The notes under the pieces were generated by a model. The model did not search any database. It was given only the letters and a program-made list of their open reading frames with translations, and was not told the origin of the DNA. Shown piece by piece: positions 19,935 through 34,780 of a stretch of 34,780 bases of DNA. The stretch comes from a virus, in IMG/VR virus record IMGVR_UViG_3300044986_000255, positions 1 through 34,780 of that record. One strand, given 5' to 3'. How positions within the stretch are numbered: position 1 is the stretch's first letter; the number at the start of each line of letters is the position of its first letter. The position numbers and the translations under genes are program-made.

Positions 19935-19942
19935 CAAATATA
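19935..19942 (-). promoter_or_regulatory. Candidate promoter for the ERF-to-MazG sub-operon (TATATTTG)
   Basis: This exact TAnnTTTG element lies in the 83-base gap between NinG and the 78-residue gene. The surrounding gap is AT-rich, and the leader to the ATG at 19881 is about 47 bases. A matching -33 TTTG is not obvious by eye. Confidence 0.6.
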
Positions 19943-21120: not shown

Positions 21121-21315
21121 TTATTTAAAATTTTCTTGATAATATTCTTCACCACTCATATGATTGCCATAATTTGGTTTAGCATTATCAAAAGCATTAA
21201 TTATGTTATCTTTTTCTATTTTTTTTGCTGTTTCAATTATATCGATAGTTAAAGGTATATTGGAATTAATTATCTCTATAATCCATTCTATTGCAGTTCC
21301 TTTTATTATTTTCAT
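21121..21315 (-). CDS. Small helical protein in the first position of an early operon (64 aa)
   Basis: The 64-residue protein (MKIIKGTAIEWIIEIINSNI, then ETAKKIEKDNIINAFDNAK) ends MSGEEYYQENFK. This C-terminal pattern (YYxExFK/YYNETYK) recurs in small early proteins of Flavobacterium phages as I know them. The gene is the first downstream of the structured leader at 21341-21430, so it is probably controlled by that leader. The function is unknown. Confidence 0.65.
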   Translation of the reverse strand: MKIIKGTAIEWIIEIINSNIPLTIDIIETAKKIEKDNIINAFDNAKPNYGNHMSGEEYYQENFK

Positions 21316-21340: not shown

Positions 21341-21430
21341 AAAAAAGCCAAGCTAACGAAGGTGCGTAGGAAAACCTTGTTGCTTGACTTTGTGTTATAA
21401 AAAATATTTTTCGGAGTTTCCTACGCTTCG
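21341..21430 (-). ncRNA. Structured leader RNA with loop-to-5'-end complementarity, copy A
   Basis: From the predicted start (about 21430) the RNA opens CGAAGCGUAGGAAACUCCGA. A terminator-like hairpin follows: AAAGUCAAGC (2191-82 in the 21400s numbering, i.e. 21391-21382) pairs with GCUUGGCUUU (21353-21344), and AAGGU-ACCUU closes an upper stem. The hairpin is followed by U-rich sequence. Its ten-base loop, UUUCCUACGC (21373-21364 complement: GCGTAGGAAA on the plus strand), is also available at 21417-21426 as the exact complement in the 5' end, so GCGUAGGAAA can pair with the whole loop. A second copy at 25980-26075 keeps every pairing with different bases. It may be a stand-alone small RNA or a termination switch for the 64-residue gene. 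Confidence 0.75.
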
Positions 21431-21436
21431 ATGTAA

Positions 21437-21464
21437 CAAATATAATAAATTATTTCATTTCAAA
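21437..21464 (-). promoter_or_regulatory. Promoter for structured RNA A and the NinG sub-operon
   Basis: The -7 element TATATTTG (21437-21444) and an upstream TTTG (21461-21464) are separated by 16 bases. The promoter of copy B has the same two elements with the same spacing. The start point is expected near 21430, exactly at the first base of the structured RNA. Confidence 0.8.
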
Positions 21465-21479
21465 TTGTTTTTGCATCTT

Positions 21480-21668
21480 TTAATTAAATTTATGTTTTCC
21501 AAGTGGTTGATTACAATTATCACAAATACCAGTACTATCATTTCCAGCTATATAAAATTTACAACATTTTTCATAATCTAAATAATCTTTTAAAACAGAT
21601 TCAAAAAGTTTATGATATTTAATTATTTTATTTTTTTTTAATGCTCTTTCAAAATTTTCTTTATTCAT
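21480..21668 (-). CDS. Small zinc-finger-like protein (62 aa)
   Basis: I choose the ATG at 21668 because it directly overlaps the upstream stop. The 62-residue product has a helical N-terminus (NKENFERALKKNKIIKYHKL) and a cysteine-rich end: EKCCKFYIAGND, then GICDNCNQPLGKHKFN. Cys-Cys, Cys-x-x-Cys and a His could form one zinc site. It ends just upstream of promoter A and closes the operon that starts at 26088. No function is assigned. Confidence 0.6.
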   Translation of the reverse strand: MNKENFERALKKNKIIKYHKLFESVLKDYLDYEKCCKFYIAGNDSTGICDNCNQPLGKHKFN

Positions 21669-21906
21669 AATATTTAATTTCAATTAATTGTTTTAAATCC
21701 ACATCTATTTTTAAAATAAACATAAATATTTCTTCTATTTCATCAATACTCTCATAGAAATATTTATCATGTATAACATAAGGCTTCCATTTTTCATAAT
21801 GAATATTAAAAAATTTATGATACCATTTTTTAGGCTCTGTATTTTTATATTGAATTTGATAATAAAATTTTTCTCCTTTTTTTTGACTTCTTAATACTCT
21901 ATACAT
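21661..21906 (-). CDS. Conserved hypothetical protein (81 aa)
   Basis: The ATG at 21906 is 2 bases after the upstream stop, so I prefer it to an earlier non-overlapping start within the upstream frame. The 81-residue product (MYRVLRSQKKGEKFYYQIQY, then YHKFFNIHYEKWKPYVIHDK) is rich in Tyr, Lys and Phe. It has a charged C-terminal helix (DEIEEIFMFILKIDVDLK). No family is recognised. Confidence 0.55.
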   Translation of the reverse strand: MYRVLRSQKKGEKFYYQIQYKNTEPKKWYHKFFNIHYEKWKPYVIHDKYFYESIDEIEEIFMFILKIDVDLKQLIEIKYYE

Positions 21907-21907
21907 A

Positions 21908-22150
21908 TTACCAAACAATATAATTATCACCAATATTTTCTATTTCTTTCCTTACTTCAATCCAATATTCTAAATTGCTTTCATATTCAAAACCATTGTA
22001 ATACATAGGACTTGAATTTATTATTTCATCTACTGAAATTAATGCTGACTCTTTGCATTTACTAATTATATATTCTTCGGGTATATAATATTCATAAACA
22101 TAAGGTCTAAACGCTAATACTAATTCTTTTGCTTTTTCTTTCGCTTTCAT
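21908..22150 (-). CDS. Small protein of a paralogous phage family, copy 1 (80 aa)
   Basis: This 80-residue protein has the same layout as the 74-residue gene at 17465-17689: KEKAKELVLAFR at the start, SKCKESALISVDEIINS in the middle and EYWIEVRKEIENIG near the end. The two differ in the loop and in their neighbours. It lies after the methyltransferase gene with a 6-base gap. The family is common in Bacteroidetes phages and has no known role. Confidence 0.65.
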   Translation of the reverse strand: MKAKEKAKELVLAFRPYVYEYYIPEEYIISKCKESALISVDEIINSSPMYYNGFEYESNLEYWIEVRKEIENIGDNYIVW

Positions 22151-22156
22151 AACTAA

Positions 22157-23182
22157 CTATTTTTTAATAAAAATAAATATATGCTCAATAACTGGTAACG
22201 TCCAACCATCACCTAATAAACACGCCGCTTGATTTCTTGTTAAAATACTTGTATATCCATCTTCAAAACCTTGAAGTCTTTCAAGTTCTATTTGTGTGAA
22301 GTATCGAATATCTCCATCTTGAAAAACAAAGTATTCATTGTTACGTAATAGGCAATTAGATTTTTCTTTCATTCCTCTCCCTCTTCTTGTTGTTGATGTT
22401 GGGTAACTTAAATCAACTGCTTCATTGTTTGCTATATCTACAAATCCAATTGATGTCGCTTCTTTAACACGTAAGTATGTTTGTTCGTCTTTAAAAATTA
22501 AATTAGCCATTCCAATTTCAAAATATCTACGTGCCATCTTACTTGGTGTGCTTAATAGTCTTGAATTACTTTCAAGCAAACACATTGATTTTGATTTTTC
22601 AGTATATCCATTTTCTAAAATATCTTTTAAATAAATTTTACGGTCTTTTGGTTCCGGAATATCAACAACCGTATCAAACATAGTTTGTTTCGTTTGTATA
22701 TTGGTCCAGTAATATCTATCTCTCATCTGTGCCACTACTTTTGAACTATTAAAGCGAACAGGGTAAACCCCTAATTCTCTACTCATTATTCCAACATCTA
22801 ATTTACTTGCACTACCTACATTTTCCTGTAAAAATAACACATTTGAATTAAGTGATTTACAATGATTCAAAATATCAACAAAAGTAAAAAACAAAGATGA
22901 TTTCTTTCCGTGAATACCTGCTCGTTTTCCTGCTGCGCTTAAATCTTGACAAGGAGATCCGCTTAATATCAAATCAATGCTTTTCCAGTCAATATCCCAT
23001 TCTTTCCATTTAGTTACATCGCCTACTTGTATAGTGTCAGGGAAATGATGTTGTGTTAATTCAATTGCATAAGGTTTAATCTCACTCGAATAATATTTAT
23101 TAACTTTTATTCCAATATTTTCTAAGGCTTGTCTACCTGTGTTCATTCCATTGAATAAACTTACTACGTTAATTTTTTTCAT
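22157..23182 (-). CDS. DNA (cytosine-5) methyltransferase
   Basis: This 341-residue protein carries the C5 methylase motifs in order: motif I VSLFNGMNTGRQAL (residues 7-20), motif IV GSPCQDLS (75-82) with catalytic Cys 78, motif VI LQENVG (118-123) and motif VIII QMRDRYYW (152-159). A target recognition region (about 180-290) is followed by the C-terminal motif IX/X part (RYFTQIELERLQGF and LLGDGWTLPVIEHIF). It transfers a methyl group from SAM to cytosine and may protect phage DNA from host restriction. No matching restriction enzyme is visible. It overlaps the upstream coiled-coil gene by 14 bases. Confidence 0.9.
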   Translation of the reverse strand: MKKINVVSLFNGMNTGRQALENIGIKVNKYYSSEIKPYAIELTQHHFPDTIQVGDVTKWKEWDIDWKSIDLILSGSPCQDLSAAGKRAGIHGKKSSLFFTFVDILNHCKSLNSNVLFLQENVGSASKLDVGIMSRELGVYPVRFNSSKVVAQMRDRYYWTNIQTKQTMFDTVVDIPEPKDRKIYLKDILENGYTEKSKSMCLLESNSRLLSTPSKMARRYFEIGMANLIFKDEQTYLRVKEATSIGFVDIANNEAVDLSYPTSTTRRGRGMKEKSNCLLRNNEYFVFQDGDIRYFTQIELERLQGFEDGYTSILTRNQAACLLGDGWTLPVIEHIFIFIKK

Positions 23183-23339
23183 CTAATTTTTTATTATAAC
23201 CTGATATAAAGCCATCCATATAGCCTTTTTTATATTCTATTTTCAACTCTTTTAATTGATTATCAATTTTACTTTTCAGAAACTTTAGTTCCATTTGTAA
23301 ATATTGGTTTTCTTGTTCTAATTTAGAAAGGACATTCAT
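23169..23339 (-). CDS. Short coiled-coil protein between helicase and methylase (56 aa)
   Basis: The ATG at 23339 lies inside the last codons of the primase-helicase gene, in another frame. The 56-residue product is a coiled coil (MNVLSKLEQENQYLQMELKF, then KSKIDNQLKELKIEYKKGYM) with a short tail (DGFISGYNKKLDEKN). It overlaps the methylase start by 14 bases. It may be an adaptor, but no function is known. Confidence 0.65.
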   Translation of the reverse strand: MNVLSKLEQENQYLQMELKFLKSKIDNQLKELKIEYKKGYMDGFISGYNKKLDEKN

Positions 23340-25113
23340 CGAATTTAGTATTAGGTTCAAAATAATTAATAGGTTCTATTTGTGATATTTCTTCATAATT
23401 TAATGTTAAGTCAAAACCTTCAGGATTACTTCCTTCAACATAATATCTTCCTGTTGGAATATGATACTTAAATTTCACTAAACCTTCAATCTTACCTTGA
23501 AATGAGAATTTAGTTTTTTGATTTGAAAACATTGTAAATCCTTCTTTTTCTTCTGTTTCAAACTGTCTATAAATTGTAAATCCATTATGAGTTTGATTTT
23601 TAAAATCAGATGAACCACTTACATCGTATAGAGTTGGCATTTCATAATCTCCATTTGCATCTTTTTTCATTTTAGTAGGATGTGCAACTAAAAATATATG
23701 AACGTTATATTTTACGCAAAACATAGTTAGTTTAGTTAAAATAATGTCAATTCCTTCCTTACCTCCTAACCCTTTTGGCATTTGAATTTTATTCCATGCA
23801 TCTATTACAAATAAATTAATACCATAGGTAAAAATCTGTTCTTCAAATTTATTAAATAACCAATCCCAATCAGGAGCTTTATCCTGTTCTTGAGTTGTAT
23901 AATACATTTTATCTTTTGACCATTCAATAAACCTATAAATATCTGTATCATTACATCCATTTTCTCCATAAAAAGGTTTACCAATTGCTAATTGAATATG
24001 TTTTGTAGCAAATAATTCAAGCGGATTATGCTCAGGTGAGTAAATAGAAGCTTTATATCCGTATTCGTGAATTAAATTAAGCAAATACCAATCCAAAAAA
24101 CTACTCTTTCCATGTGAAGGAATACCTGTTATAGTAGTTAATTGCCCCATCATAATAGAAAAAGTTTCTTTTAAATTTCCAAAAACAGATTTCTTTGGTG
24201 AAATTGTATCAGGTAATCCTTTTTCTTTTAGTCTTAATATTGAATCTAATAAATCAAAACTTGTAAATGTTCCACCTATACTGAATCTATGCTCTTTTTT
24301 TATAGAATTAGTTAGTTTTCCAAGCTTTAAATCATCGTTAGCATCCTTGCTGTCAAATTCAATGTAAACGCATCTGTAACGCCCTAATCTTTGCGCTATC
24401 TTTTCTCTAACTTCAATTCCTTTTTGATCGTTATCGGTTGCAATAATAAATTTTTTAACATCTTTTAAATATTTTTCAGAATTAATCCAAAAATCATCGT
24501 TATCATTTGCACCATTTGGAAGGCTTATAACGTTCTTAATTCCTATTTCATAAAGTGCTAAAACATCAAATTCCCCTTCTACTATGTAACATTCATCTAA
24601 ACCAATAATAGAATTTATATTGTAAAATATTGGCTTTCCTCCAGTGTGCGAAGTAAATAGTTTTTTTGTTTCTCCGTTGATATTTGCAACACCTCTATAT
24701 TTTTTATTAACTAATGTTTCCCCTTCAAAGTAATTAAACACAATTGCATTTTGTTTCTTTTGAATTTGTGGAAAATAAACCTCTTCTTGTGTAATTTCAA
24801 GTTGATTGAGAGTATTTTGGCTAATATTCCTTTCACTCCAAACCCATTTAACAAGTTTATCAGGTAAATTAGTGTAGTTTTTCCATTCTTGTTTTGGAAA
24901 TGTATAAACTTTTTCTTTAAAAGTGTCAGTAACTGAATCTCTAAATGTTAAAGCTTTGCAGTAAAAACAAGATCCAAATCCTTTATCGTGTTGAATTTTC
25001 AAAGACTTATCTTTTTTATCTGTTCTTACCTCATCACAAGCTGGGCATCTTAAAGCCTCTCTACCACTATATTTTTTTAATGGCAATGTATTCCATTTTA
25101 TAAACTGTTTCAT
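23323..25113 (-). CDS. Primase-helicase (Twinkle/T7 gp4-like)
   Basis: The 596-residue protein has three parts. An N-terminal zinc ribbon has CPAC (C23, C26) and CFYC (C49, C52), suited to priming. A toprim-like part has YIVEGEFDVLA (176-186) and ATDNDQKG (225-232). A RecA-fold helicase has Walker A GIPSHGKSS (330-338), the motif YSPEHNP (358-364), Walker B FVIDAW (435-440) and VHIFLVAHPTKM (471-482). It should unwind DNA at the fork and lay RNA primers, although true primase activity depends on residues I cannot verify. The gene directly follows the initiator (ATGA overlap). Confidence 0.9.
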   Translation of the reverse strand: MKQFIKWNTLPLKKYSGREALRCPACDEVRTDKKDKSLKIQHDKGFGSCFYCKALTFRDSVTDTFKEKVYTFPKQEWKNYTNLPDKLVKWVWSERNISQNTLNQLEITQEEVYFPQIQKKQNAIVFNYFEGETLVNKKYRGVANINGETKKLFTSHTGGKPIFYNINSIIGLDECYIVEGEFDVLALYEIGIKNVISLPNGANDNDDFWINSEKYLKDVKKFIIATDNDQKGIEVREKIAQRLGRYRCVYIEFDSKDANDDLKLGKLTNSIKKEHRFSIGGTFTSFDLLDSILRLKEKGLPDTISPKKSVFGNLKETFSIMMGQLTTITGIPSHGKSSFLDWYLLNLIHEYGYKASIYSPEHNPLELFATKHIQLAIGKPFYGENGCNDTDIYRFIEWSKDKMYYTTQEQDKAPDWDWLFNKFEEQIFTYGINLFVIDAWNKIQMPKGLGGKEGIDIILTKLTMFCVKYNVHIFLVAHPTKMKKDANGDYEMPTLYDVSGSSDFKNQTHNGFTIYRQFETEEKEGFTMFSNQKTKFSFQGKIEGLVKFKYHIPTGRYYVEGSNPEGFDLTLNYEEISQIEPINYFEPNTKFDECPF

Positions 25114-25784
25114 GATTTTGCAAATCTACGTTTTAACATTTGTTCTTCTGTCTCTATTATTACACCTTGTTTATTTTGTGAAATAGTTTCGTTTTTTATT
25201 TCATCATTCCAACATTCATTATATAACCAAGTTTTAGGGTGTTTTAAATATTGTTTATCTTTTACCGATTTAAGATAATTAGGTAATACCAATTTTATTT
25301 TTACTTTTTGTTCATTTGACAACCTATTAAATTTTTGTTCACAAGTTTTACGATCAAGTTTCTTGTCATAAGTGTTCCAAAATTCATCAAATGAATATAT
25401 ATTATTTTCTATATTATTATTAGTATTATTAATAATAGTATTATTGGGTAAAGTTTCTTTACTACCCCCCAGTAAAGTTTCTTTACTACCCATGTTAAGA
25501 TTCTTTACTACCCATAAAGAAATTTTATACCTATTAAAACTAACTCCATTAATAGTATTTACATTCTTAATAATTAGGTTTTTTTCAGTTAAAAACTTCA
25601 ATGATTTTATAGCAGTAGGACGTGAACAATTAAGCCACTTACATAAGTAATTAATAGAACCAGTAAACTCACTTTCACCATCTTGAGAAAAACCATAAAT
25701 AAGGGCGTATGTAAGCAAATCATTTCCTGACAAATTCAATTCTGAAACCATCCATCCTTGAATAACTATATAATTGTCTTTCAT
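25110..25784 (-). CDS. Winged-helix replication initiator or helicase loader
   Basis: The 224-residue protein has an N-terminal winged-helix domain. It opens MKDNYIVIQGWMVSELNLSG and then LTYALIYGFSQDGESEFTGS, INYLCKWLNCSRPTAIKSLK and FLTEKNLIIKNVNTINGVSF, which is the usual replisome organiser pattern. The C-terminal part (SFDEFWNTYDKKLDRKTCEQ, then HPKTWLYNECWND) resembles helicase loaders and DnaD-like proteins. Its middle holds SKETLLGGSKETLPN, a peptide repeat written by DNA iterons. Such self-contained initiators carry the origin within their own gene in lambda-type phages. It precedes the primase-helicase and overlaps it by 4 bases. Confidence 0.8.
   Translation of the reverse strand: MKDNYIVIQGWMVSELNLSGNDLLTYALIYGFSQDGESEFTGSINYLCKWLNCSRPTAIKSLKFLTEKNLIIKNVNTINGVSFNRYKISLWVVKNLNMGSKETLLGGSKETLPNNTIINNTNNNIENNIYSFDEFWNTYDKKLDRKTCEQKFNRLSNEQKVKIKLVLPNYLKSVKDKQYLKHPKTWLYNECWNDEIKNETISQNKQGVIIETEEQMLKRRFAKS
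25389..25513. other. Candidate replication origin: iterons plus AT-rich tract
   Basis: Three direct repeats lie inside the initiator gene on the plus strand: GGGTAAAGTTTCTTTACTACCC (25446-25467, core of 20: GTAAAGTTTCTTTACTACCC), AGTAAAGTTTCTTTACTACC at 25471-25490, and the diverged GTTAAGATTCTTTACTACCC (25494-25513). Each holds the inverted repeat TAAAG-TTT-CTTTA or a near version. Their spacing is about 23 bases, near two helix turns. The neighbouring 25389-25445 is almost only A and T. This is the lambda-type arrangement of iterons and an unwinding tract. Confidence 0.7.
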
Positions 25785-25960
25785 TATTTCATTTCTTTAT
25801 GAATCAAATGCAAAGCACCAATTAAATGATAAATGTCCTTTTTATTTAAATAGGCGCATACTGGTTCATCATTTTCATCTAAAACTGTAAAAACAACAGA
25901 TTTTTCATTAAACAATTCTACTTCTAAAGTAGTTGTTTCATCTTGAAATTTGTAAATCAT
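25784..25960 (-). CDS. Small protein in first position of the replication sub-operon (58 aa)
   Basis: The ATG at 25960 opens 58 codons (MIYKFQDETTTLEVELFNEK, then YLNKKDIYHLIGALHLIHKE), ending on the ATG of the initiator gene (TAATG). The product is a beta-hairpin plus helix. It is the first gene downstream of structured RNA B. No family is recognised. Confidence 0.65.
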   Translation of the reverse strand: MIYKFQDETTTLEVELFNEKSVVFTVLDENDEPVCAYLNKKDIYHLIGALHLIHKEMK

Positions 25961-25979
25961 AATAAATAAATTTTTTTAA

Positions 25980-26075
25980 CACAAAAAGCCAACTTCAAAG
26001 GTGCGTGAGAAAACCTTATCAGTTAGCTTTTGTATTCGTTTTTTAATAAATTTTTTCGGAGTTTCTCACGCTTCG
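25980..26075 (-). ncRNA. Structured leader RNA with loop-to-5'-end complementarity, copy B
   Basis: The RNA begins CGAAGCGUGAGAAACUCCGA near 26075. AAAAGCUAACU (26031-26021) pairs with AGUUGGCUUUU (25994-25984) in the lower stem of a hairpin that continues with AAGGU and ACCUU, followed by U-rich sequence. The ten-base loop UUUCUCACGC is fully complementary to GCGUGAGAAA at the 5' end. Relative to copy A, the 5' segment and the loop differ by the matched changes AG to GA and CU to UC, so pairing is kept while sequence is not. CUCCGAAAAA and the AAGGU/ACCUU pair are constant. The next gene starts 20 bases downstream. Confidence 0.75.
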
Positions 26076-26080
26076 ATAGA

Positions 26081-26108
26081 CAAATATAATAATTATTTTT
26101 TAATCAAA
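26081..26108 (-). promoter_or_regulatory. Promoter for structured RNA B and the replication sub-operon
   Basis: The -7 element TATATTTG (26081-26088) and TTTG (26105-26108) have 16 bases between them, the same as at copy A. The TTTG overlaps the stop of the upstream gene. The start point is expected close to 26075. Confidence 0.8.
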
Positions 26109-33648: not shown

Positions 33649-34780
33649 TTATTTCACGTCTGAAGGTAAATTTTTATTTCTTGGACTATATCCTTTTAAT
33701 GGTAAGTTGTTAGGATAAACAGAAACTTCTGAGGGGTTAGTCACTTTGTACCCTCTAATCTCTGCTGCTCTTGTTCCTACCTTTTCAAACACATCTTTAT
33801 CATTTAACATATAAGTTAATCGTGACCATTTATGATGGCATCGAGGACCTCCATGGAATCTAAAAATATCGTATTTGTCAGCTCCAAATTCACCAAAACC
33901 TCTATTAACAATACTTTCACTCATTCTGTCAATATCCTCTTTTCTATATACTTTGTTTGCGCTCATCATTGCTTTACAAAAAGCTCTTTCAGGGTTAGGA
34001 TTACCTGTATATTTATATCGAACCTTGAACATTATTCCTTTTATTTGTTTGTCTTGTGAAGATACTGCCGTTGGTCTTGCTGTTCCTGTTGAAACAAAAT
34101 TAAATACTTTATCAATTAAAGAAAGTTTTGTAGTAGTATTTTCAAGGTCGTTTAAATATTCGTTTAAAAACTCTTCATTATCATAATCGGCATCCCTTTC
34201 ATCAATTAATACGTAGTTTTCATCAATATCTTCACCAAACTCATCTAATAATAATTCAAGTTCTGATTTGTCCGAATTCATATGAATGGTTTGTGTATCA
34301 TCTTGTTTAGACAATGTTTGTAATTCTGAAGAACTCGATTTAAATGGATTCAATGACTTAAAAGCTAAATCTAAATTAATGTCATTAACTCTAAATATTT
34401 TCTTTAAAGAATCAATTATCAATTGTTGTTTTGGCTTGATAACCATATTTTCGTACAATGTAAACGAATTTTGTAACTCATCCGCATTAGCACTAAATCC
34501 AGTTGTTGTAGCAATACCAAAAATCAAAGGACTAACAACGTTATGACCTACCATTATTTTAGTTCTACATTCTTCACTTAGATATGCATAATGTTCAGGT
34601 GCATCGTTTAAAGGTACACTATCAATTGTTGTTTTTGTAGCTTCGTTATCGTTAAAAGATACTACTAACTTCTTGCCTGTTGAACCTGTTAATTGGTTCA
34701 TTATTCTATTAGTGATGTCGTCTTTTTCTTGGTCCGCAGGTTGCCCATTGTTGAAATTTAGTACAGTCGTTGGCGAAAAT
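33649..34780 (-). CDS. Portal protein, C-terminal part (gene continues across the contig join)
   Basis: This is the same gene as 1-765: the frame agrees across the 127-base overlap, giving about 589 residues. The core portal part has LSEECRTKIMVGHNVVSPLI, then GFSANADELQNSFTLYENMV. Residues from about 360 to 440 form an acidic linker. The last 130 residues form a separate region with FCKAMMSANKVYRKEDI and YDIFRFHGGPRCHHKWSR (Cys about 482 and 527, His 528 and 529). This region looks like a MuF-type head morphogenesis module, but the match is by eye only. The C-terminal domain suggests the portal carries extra assembly functions. It is followed by the HNH gene. Confidence 0.8.
   Translation of the reverse strand, partial: FSPTTVLNFNNGQPADQEKDDITNRIMNQLTGSTGKKLVVSFNDNEATKTTIDSVPLNDAPEHYAYLSEECRTKIMVGHNVVSPLIFGIATTTGFSANADELQNSFTLYENMVIKPKQQLIIDSLKKIFRVNDINLDLAFKSLNPFKSSSSELQTLSKQDDTQTIHMNSDKSELELLLDEFGEDIDENYVLIDERDADYDNEEFLNEYLNDLENTTTKLSLIDKVFNFVSTGTARPTAVSSQDKQIKGIMFKVRYKYTGNPNPERAFCKAMMSANKVYRKEDIDRMSESIVNRGFGEFGADKYDIFRFHGGPRCHHKWSRLTYMLNDKDVFEKVGTRAAEIRGYKVTNPSEVSVYPNNLPLKGYSPRNKNLPSDVK
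34654..34780. repeat. Terminal direct repeat, right copy (contig join)
   Basis: These 127 bases are identical to bases 1-127. Removing one copy gives a circular sequence of about 34,653 bp with an intact portal frame. Confidence 0.95.

Follow-up and report, generated by a model that had tools for sequence, protein, structure and literature searches.

A phage leader RNA whose terminator loop is complementary to its own 5' hairpin loop: a candidate transcription attenuator at the heads of Bacteroidota phage operons

Introduction

The phage record IMGVR_UViG_3300044986_000255 of IMG/VR, analysed over its 34,780 nucleotides and referred to here as the window, carries nearly all of its genes on the minus strand. 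On that same strand it holds two related RNA elements, copy A (21341-21430) and copy B (25980-26075), in each of which a terminator-like hairpin bears a ten-base loop complementary to a segment near the 5' end of the same transcript. The locus raises the question of what an RNA of this layout does, and an earlier note on this DNA had considered a paired attenuator, a stand-alone small RNA and an antiterminator resembling put. The analysis described here points to a leader in which the loops of two hairpins, stem-loop 1 (SL1) and stem-loop 2 (SL2), pair or 'kiss', and it favours, with moderate confidence, a cis-acting, promoter-proximal transcription attenuator in which readthrough would be set by the contact between SL1 and the terminator.

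Anatomy of the two copies

Both copies were found where the earlier note had placed them, behind near-identical promoters of the form TTTG-N16-TATATTTG, as it had reported. TTTG/TAnnTTTG is the promoter consensus of Bacteroidota, and by their motifs the promoters of A and B are of this type. Behind each promoter the order is SL1 as the 5' hairpin, an A-rich spacer, SL2 with a U-tract, and an open reading frame (ORF) ~20-30 nt further on. The features are listed below.

Copy A, promoter read from the sequence: 21437-21464, minus strand; TTTG at 21464-21461, N16, TATATTTG at 21444-21437
Copy A, SL1: 21411-21431, minus strand; UCGAAG-[CGUAGGAAA]-CUCCGA, the loop holding the kissing segment GCGUAGGAAA (21417-21426)
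Copy A, SL2, predicted intrinsic-terminator hairpin (folding and covariation): 21344-21391, minus strand; loop UUUCCUACGC at 21364-21373
Copy A, U-tract after SL2: 21341-21346, minus strand; TTTTTT on that strand
Copy B, promoter read from the sequence: 26081-26108, minus strand; TTTG at 26108-26105, N16, TATATTTG at 26088-26081
Copy B, SL1: 26056-26076, minus strand; UCGAAG-[CGUGAGAAA]-CUCCGA, with kissing segment GCGUGAGAAA (26062-26071)
Copy B, SL2, predicted intrinsic-terminator hairpin (folding and covariation): 25984-26031, minus strand; loop UUUCUCACGC at 26003-26012
Copy B, U-tract after SL2: 25983-25987, minus strand; TTTTT on that strand

Over all 10 nt, each SL2 loop (plus-strand 21364-21373 in A, 26003-26012 in B) is the exact complement of the 5' segment in its own copy (21417-21426 and 26062-26071, respectively), so that the full complementarity claimed for the terminator loop holds in A and B alike, and folding of each copy gave a terminator with an open 10-nt loop (z = -2.2 for A and -2.9 for B). 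The pairing had been described as one between this loop and a 5' segment; because the segment itself lies in the hairpin loop of SL1, the contact is predicted to be loop-loop. The SL1 stem, UCGAAG/CUCCGA, contains one A.C mismatch in both copies, and the stems are clearer in relatives. The conserved CUCCGAAAAA, which had been put forward as a possible ligand or protein contact, proved to be mostly the 3' arm of SL1, CUCCGA being a stem arm, and a contact site of this kind was no longer favoured.

The minus-strand intergenic DNA of the window contains six TAnnTTTG sites, two of which are followed by an element; inspection of the sites at 19942 and 27349 revealed an element at neither. Near A and B, no plus-strand promoter of the TAnnTTTG type, the only type covered, was present, and antisense control from the plus strand was rejected on this ground.

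Covariation

Two subfamilies could be aligned, that of the window (A3, 18 sequences) and a second one (A4, 23 sequences). The kissing helix of A3 was 93.9% paired and 6 of its 10 pairs had changed on both sides (23 cells), with no one-sided changes and no wobble; its two-sided changes were matched in 0 of 500 shuffles. Two-sided change was also seen in 6 of the 17 pairs of the A3 SL2 stem, and in at most 2 pairs of the slid controls for A3. The kissing helix of A4 was 100% paired, again with neither one-sided change nor wobble, and 6 of its 8 pairs had changed on both sides (19 cells); over the whole A4 structure 99.0% of cells were paired, the SL1 and SL2 stems varying through compensation and wobble. 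When set against shuffled alignments (n = 500 for A4), four measures exceeded all shuffles in each subfamily, while the fifth, the count of pair types, was equalled by one shuffle in A4 and was not above the shuffles in A3. The shuffles leave sequence relatedness in, and the slid structures, which keep it, served as a control: across the alignments these had at most 5 pairs with two-sided change, compared with 12 and 18 for the real structures. Selection on RNA structure, as the earlier note had argued, is therefore upheld by covariation in the kissing helix and SL2 stem of the 18 A3 homologues, the check that it had proposed, and by covariation in a second subfamily.

Within A4, SL2 (for example at locus L168, from 12632) carries a conserved GGNRGC...GCCNAA around the kissing loop, which suggests a non-canonical internal loop, possibly with tandem G.A pairs.

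It could be that the complementarity acts in DNA, for example as paired protein-binding sites or as repeats kept identical by template switching, given that the 10-mer is an inverted repeat of strict identity without wobble. However, the covarying stems include G-U pairs, which point to RNA, and the searches described below returned dozens of different words together with a strand-consistent promoter and U-tract and a near-absence from reversed controls. A DNA-level repeat is accordingly held to be most improbable, and template switching could still help to produce paired changes.

Occurrence in other phages

Homologues were gathered by an IMG/VR pattern scan and by primase-based searches. Where a phage had no member of this sequence family, the leader at the syntenic position was found to keep the layout with unrelated sequence, as at three loci with the following complementary pairs.

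Locus L019: GAGTCTCA/TGAGACTC
Locus L021: CATCCAC/GTGGATG
Locus L026: GAGAACCAC/GTGGTTCTC

A systematic scan was therefore carried out. Starting from promoters, 54 distinct candidates with a complement of at least 8 nt were recovered, against ~12 expected from re-pairing. In a promoter-blind scan, 79 of 2154 terminator-like hairpins had a complement of 7 nt or longer upstream (~25 expected), and TAnnTTTG lay upstream in 71% of those 79 compared with 3.8% of the remaining hairpins. From the first locus set the final detector returned 78 distinct elements, compared with 6 when the sequence was reversed; as a control, reversal leaves composition and inverted repeats intact and breaks promoter/terminator polarity. 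Two loop-pattern scans then enlarged the locus set, adding 36 and 65 IMG/VR contigs, and over 268 loci, with a hairpin-energy cut-off of -9 kcal/mol, 153 distinct elements were detected, against 2 in reversed sequence. These 153 elements use 67 distinct loop words (7-mers). In a set of 75 elements, the kissing segment was enclosed by an SL1 stem of 3 bp or more in 72, so the contact is taken to be loop-loop across the elements and not in the window only. The two homologous RNAs of the earlier note are thus both real, and what it missed was the scale, that of a broad architecture with variable loops.

The U-tract bears on whether the hairpin is a terminator at all. The element might be a structured 5' untranslated region that guards the messenger RNA or regulates translation, in which case the U-rich stretch would be no more than part of an AT-rich leader; in keeping with this, the genes begin only 5-60 nt past the hairpin, and ~6 nt past it in the HNH-like class. 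When detection was run without a U-tract requirement, however, four or more consecutive T immediately past the stem were present in 68 of 87 cases (78%), compared with 9.6% of spacer control windows, and this alternative is judged improbable.

Cultured phages positive for the element were morran9-1, tooticki6-1, elemoA, F. columnare phage V181 and Cellulophaga phi19:1; by the detector, P12024L, Bacteroides BT2 and FPSV-S20 were without it. Taken together, many viruses of Flavobacterium-like bacteria appear from their sequences to begin operons with this leader, and the pairing sequence differs between viruses. A Bacteroidota-phage element with a primase was also seen at locus L149, on a contig of a metagenome-assembled genome named Campylobacterales, which is probably a mis-binned phage contig. 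A host-borne element was rejected within the range covered, in that exact patterns for three subfamilies had no hit in any of 399 genomes from the bacterial family to which the genome of locus L151 belongs; other subfamilies and bacterial families lay outside this test.

The absence of a described family, which the earlier note had supposed, also stood. With E allowed to rise to 10, Rfam covariance models still matched neither A nor B, and BLASTN of the RNA against phage records gave matches at chance level only. A covariance model of the window subfamily (R1) barely reached other subfamilies, as expected because loops and stems differ between them. The layout was not found in full-text literature searches, which covered open-licence papers and included some poorly targeted queries, and we know of this kissing-terminator leader architecture from nowhere else.

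Position ahead of genes

An ORF of at least 40 amino acids started within 120 nt of 146 of the 153 elements, the median distance from hairpin to ORF start being 17 nt. This placement supports the paired-attenuator option; it also makes a stand-alone small RNA unlikely, since nearly every element directly leads a gene and is not an independent unit acting in trans. The first proteins behind the elements fall into 47 unrelated families; going by sequence motifs and record annotation, these include HNH/NUMOD-type endonuclease-like, small replication-operon, helicase-like and methyltransferase-like ORFs. The genes behind the two copies in the window are as follows.

21121-21315, minus strand: first ORF after A (64 amino acids), ~30 nt past the element, heading an operon that runs on to NinG and ERF
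25784-25960, minus strand: first ORF after B (58 amino acids, MIYKF... family), ~22 nt past the element, heading a replication operon
25110-25784, minus strand: HTH protein of the replication operon behind B
23323-25113, minus strand: TOPRIM primase/helicase of the same operon

At locus L165 (14157-14300), a coding sequence annotated as a 47-amino-acid hypothetical protein, gp042 of morran9-1, overlaps the kissing element and is probably no real gene. Between SL2 and the start codon (about 14286-14333 in L165), loci L006, L085, L108, L118 and L165 share another short conserved motif, GGU-N8~10-ACC (for example GGTAATCTAAAAACC). The ATG that it closely precedes belongs to a family of ~60-86-amino-acid proteins that end in an LDKxTAIKFAKTLR-like sequence, and the motif is possibly a translational operator. 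As to the record itself, positions 1-765 and 33649-34780 of the window encode one and the same protein stretch (FSPTTVLNFNNGQPADQEKDD...); because of this terminal overlap the record is probably a complete, circularly permuted genome.

Loop words and possible action in trans

No loop word was shared within any of the 46 loci that hold two or more elements (0 of 62 pairs), and pairing between the non-cognate loops of A and B was 6-7 kcal/mol weaker than cognate pairing. A permutation test of within-locus sharing gave P = 0.0002, a value biased by the loop-pattern fetching of loci; in the unbiased subset, 0 of 15 pairs shared a word against 0.9 expected, which is not significant. Distinct words and weak cross-pairing would suit an avoidance of cross-talk in trans, at which these data only hint.

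One interpretation is that the RNA acts in trans, for immunity or dosage sensing: terminated leaders of 90-100 nt would accumulate and kiss nascent leaders with the same word, each operon or phage sensing its own RNA level, and loop diversity would mark compatibility groups like those of the plasmids ColE1 or pT181. Loop words that vary while stems are kept, the lack of shared words in multi-element loci, the weak non-cognate pairing of A and B and the kissing helices without wobble pairs in both alignments are all consistent with such a scheme. However, the statistics on word sharing carry the bias just described, and compensatory drift under a purely cis constraint likewise yields diversity, so that action in trans is considered unlikely. 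Equally speculative is its extension to a modular system of RNA-only addresses in phages of Bacteroidota, with one loop word per operon head and terminated leaders acting on leaders of the same word. If true, it would mean dosage feedback within a phage, incompatibility between co-infecting phages, and loop words that diversify like plasmid incompatibility groups.

Discussion

A kissing-controlled attenuator is the simplest account of these leaders, because of their position between promoter and gene, their U-tract and their loop-loop contact. Structure and position are well supported; that SL2 terminates transcription in vivo, that the kiss affects termination and in which direction, and any input in trans, and with them function and polarity, are what we infer. 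Host RNA polymerase would start at the TTTG/TAnnTTTG promoter and make SL1. After another ~30-40 nt it would reach SL2, the intrinsic terminator right before the first gene, and make its 5' arm and loop. Before the SL2 stem has closed, or as it closes, the loops of SL1 and SL2 would join through 7-10 Watson-Crick pairs, a kiss that would set how often polymerase stops. It is our judgement, held by a modest margin, that the kiss opposes or delays termination rather than promoting it, because a promoter-proximal terminator must be passed for expression from this promoter and because contact between the two loops is possible before the SL2 3' arm has been made. Occupation of the SL1 loop, for example by terminated leaders of the same loop type or by a protein that recognises kissing complexes, would in that case lower readthrough. 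When minimum-free-energy folding was applied with the SL2 loop just emerged, the loop was paired to the 5' segment in 142 of 153 elements; this plain secondary-structure calculation has no kissing model and treats thermodynamics without kinetics or polymerase, and its outcome is partly expected, complementarity having been a selection criterion.

Several points weigh against an attenuator of this kind. Termination and readthrough are deduced from sequence, and some members (L026, L155) have weak U-tracts, so that termination there may be partial. In the A4 and HNH-type subfamilies the loops have 1-2 bases to spare as linkers and neither stem has to open; for this reason kissing could equally stabilise the terminator or serve, for example, the stability of a 5' untranslated region. 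The opening of the upper stem by the 5' pairing, as first proposed, is possible, and for most subfamilies an ordinary kiss that leaves both stems closed is at least as good a fit. Any regulator of the switch is hypothetical.

Known systems share parts of this design. RNAI and RNAII of ColE1 pair through short, fully complementary kissing loops of diversified sequence; theirs is an intermolecular contact, whereas here the complementarity lies within one leader. The CI RNA of phage P4 and c4 of P1/P7, each a sequence-specific repressor RNA from an individual temperate or satellite phage, combine a leader RNA and premature termination with complementary segments in one transcript. The present elements likewise hold complementary segments in one phage leader that ends in a predicted terminator, and we know of no homology between the two groups.

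In the pT181 attenuator, an antisense RNA kisses a 5' hairpin and an anti-terminator binds the 5' arm of the terminator (PMC4878617). That system is alike in its 5' hairpin with an anti-terminator, its terminator before the gene, its kissing-initiated control and the specificity set by loop bases (PMC4878617). Unlike it, the leaders described here use the terminator loop itself as the partner, and no opposite-strand TAnnTTTG promoter was seen. Their terminator/5'-hairpin layout is present in anatomy and covariation, and any competition between the structures was modelled by plain folding.

HK022 putL and putR resemble the elements in being phage-borne, cis-acting and RNA-only, with two stem-loops in ~70-100 nt, and putL lies just after an early promoter (PMC9378689, as far as its available text describes them). 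The same text has put binding the zinc-binding domain of polymerase beta' and gives the putRNA structure as an A3-C72 fold with a triplex. The folded SL1-SL2 complex might similarly bind the transcribing polymerase and make it resistant to downstream pausing and termination: the elements too consist of two stem-loops, ~70-100 nt long and RNA-only in design, right after early-type promoters, and putRNA has ~70 nt with putL just downstream of PL. However, each element ends in a U-tract terminator of its own, and sequence and stem details differ so widely between subfamilies that sequence-specific binding of polymerase is hard to envisage. The available description of put also reports no loop-loop kissing, built-in U-tract terminator or variable loops (PMC9378689), and on this description the elements stand apart; a put-like function is rated a little below action in trans. 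By analogy, the logic of the leaders would resemble that of pT181, and their position, size and two-hairpin form that of the put sites as there described.

If the leaders do act as attenuators, their dozens of natural loop words would form a ready library of candidate orthogonal RNA switches. With the element present in cultured phages of Flavobacterium and Cellulophaga, control of transcription through a loop-loop contact at a terminator can be tested directly. As attenuators, the leaders would constitute a widespread and apparently undescribed class of cis-regulatory RNA at the head of replication, recombination, methylation and homing-endonuclease operons of Bacteroidota phages, viruses in which little is known about the control of early genes.

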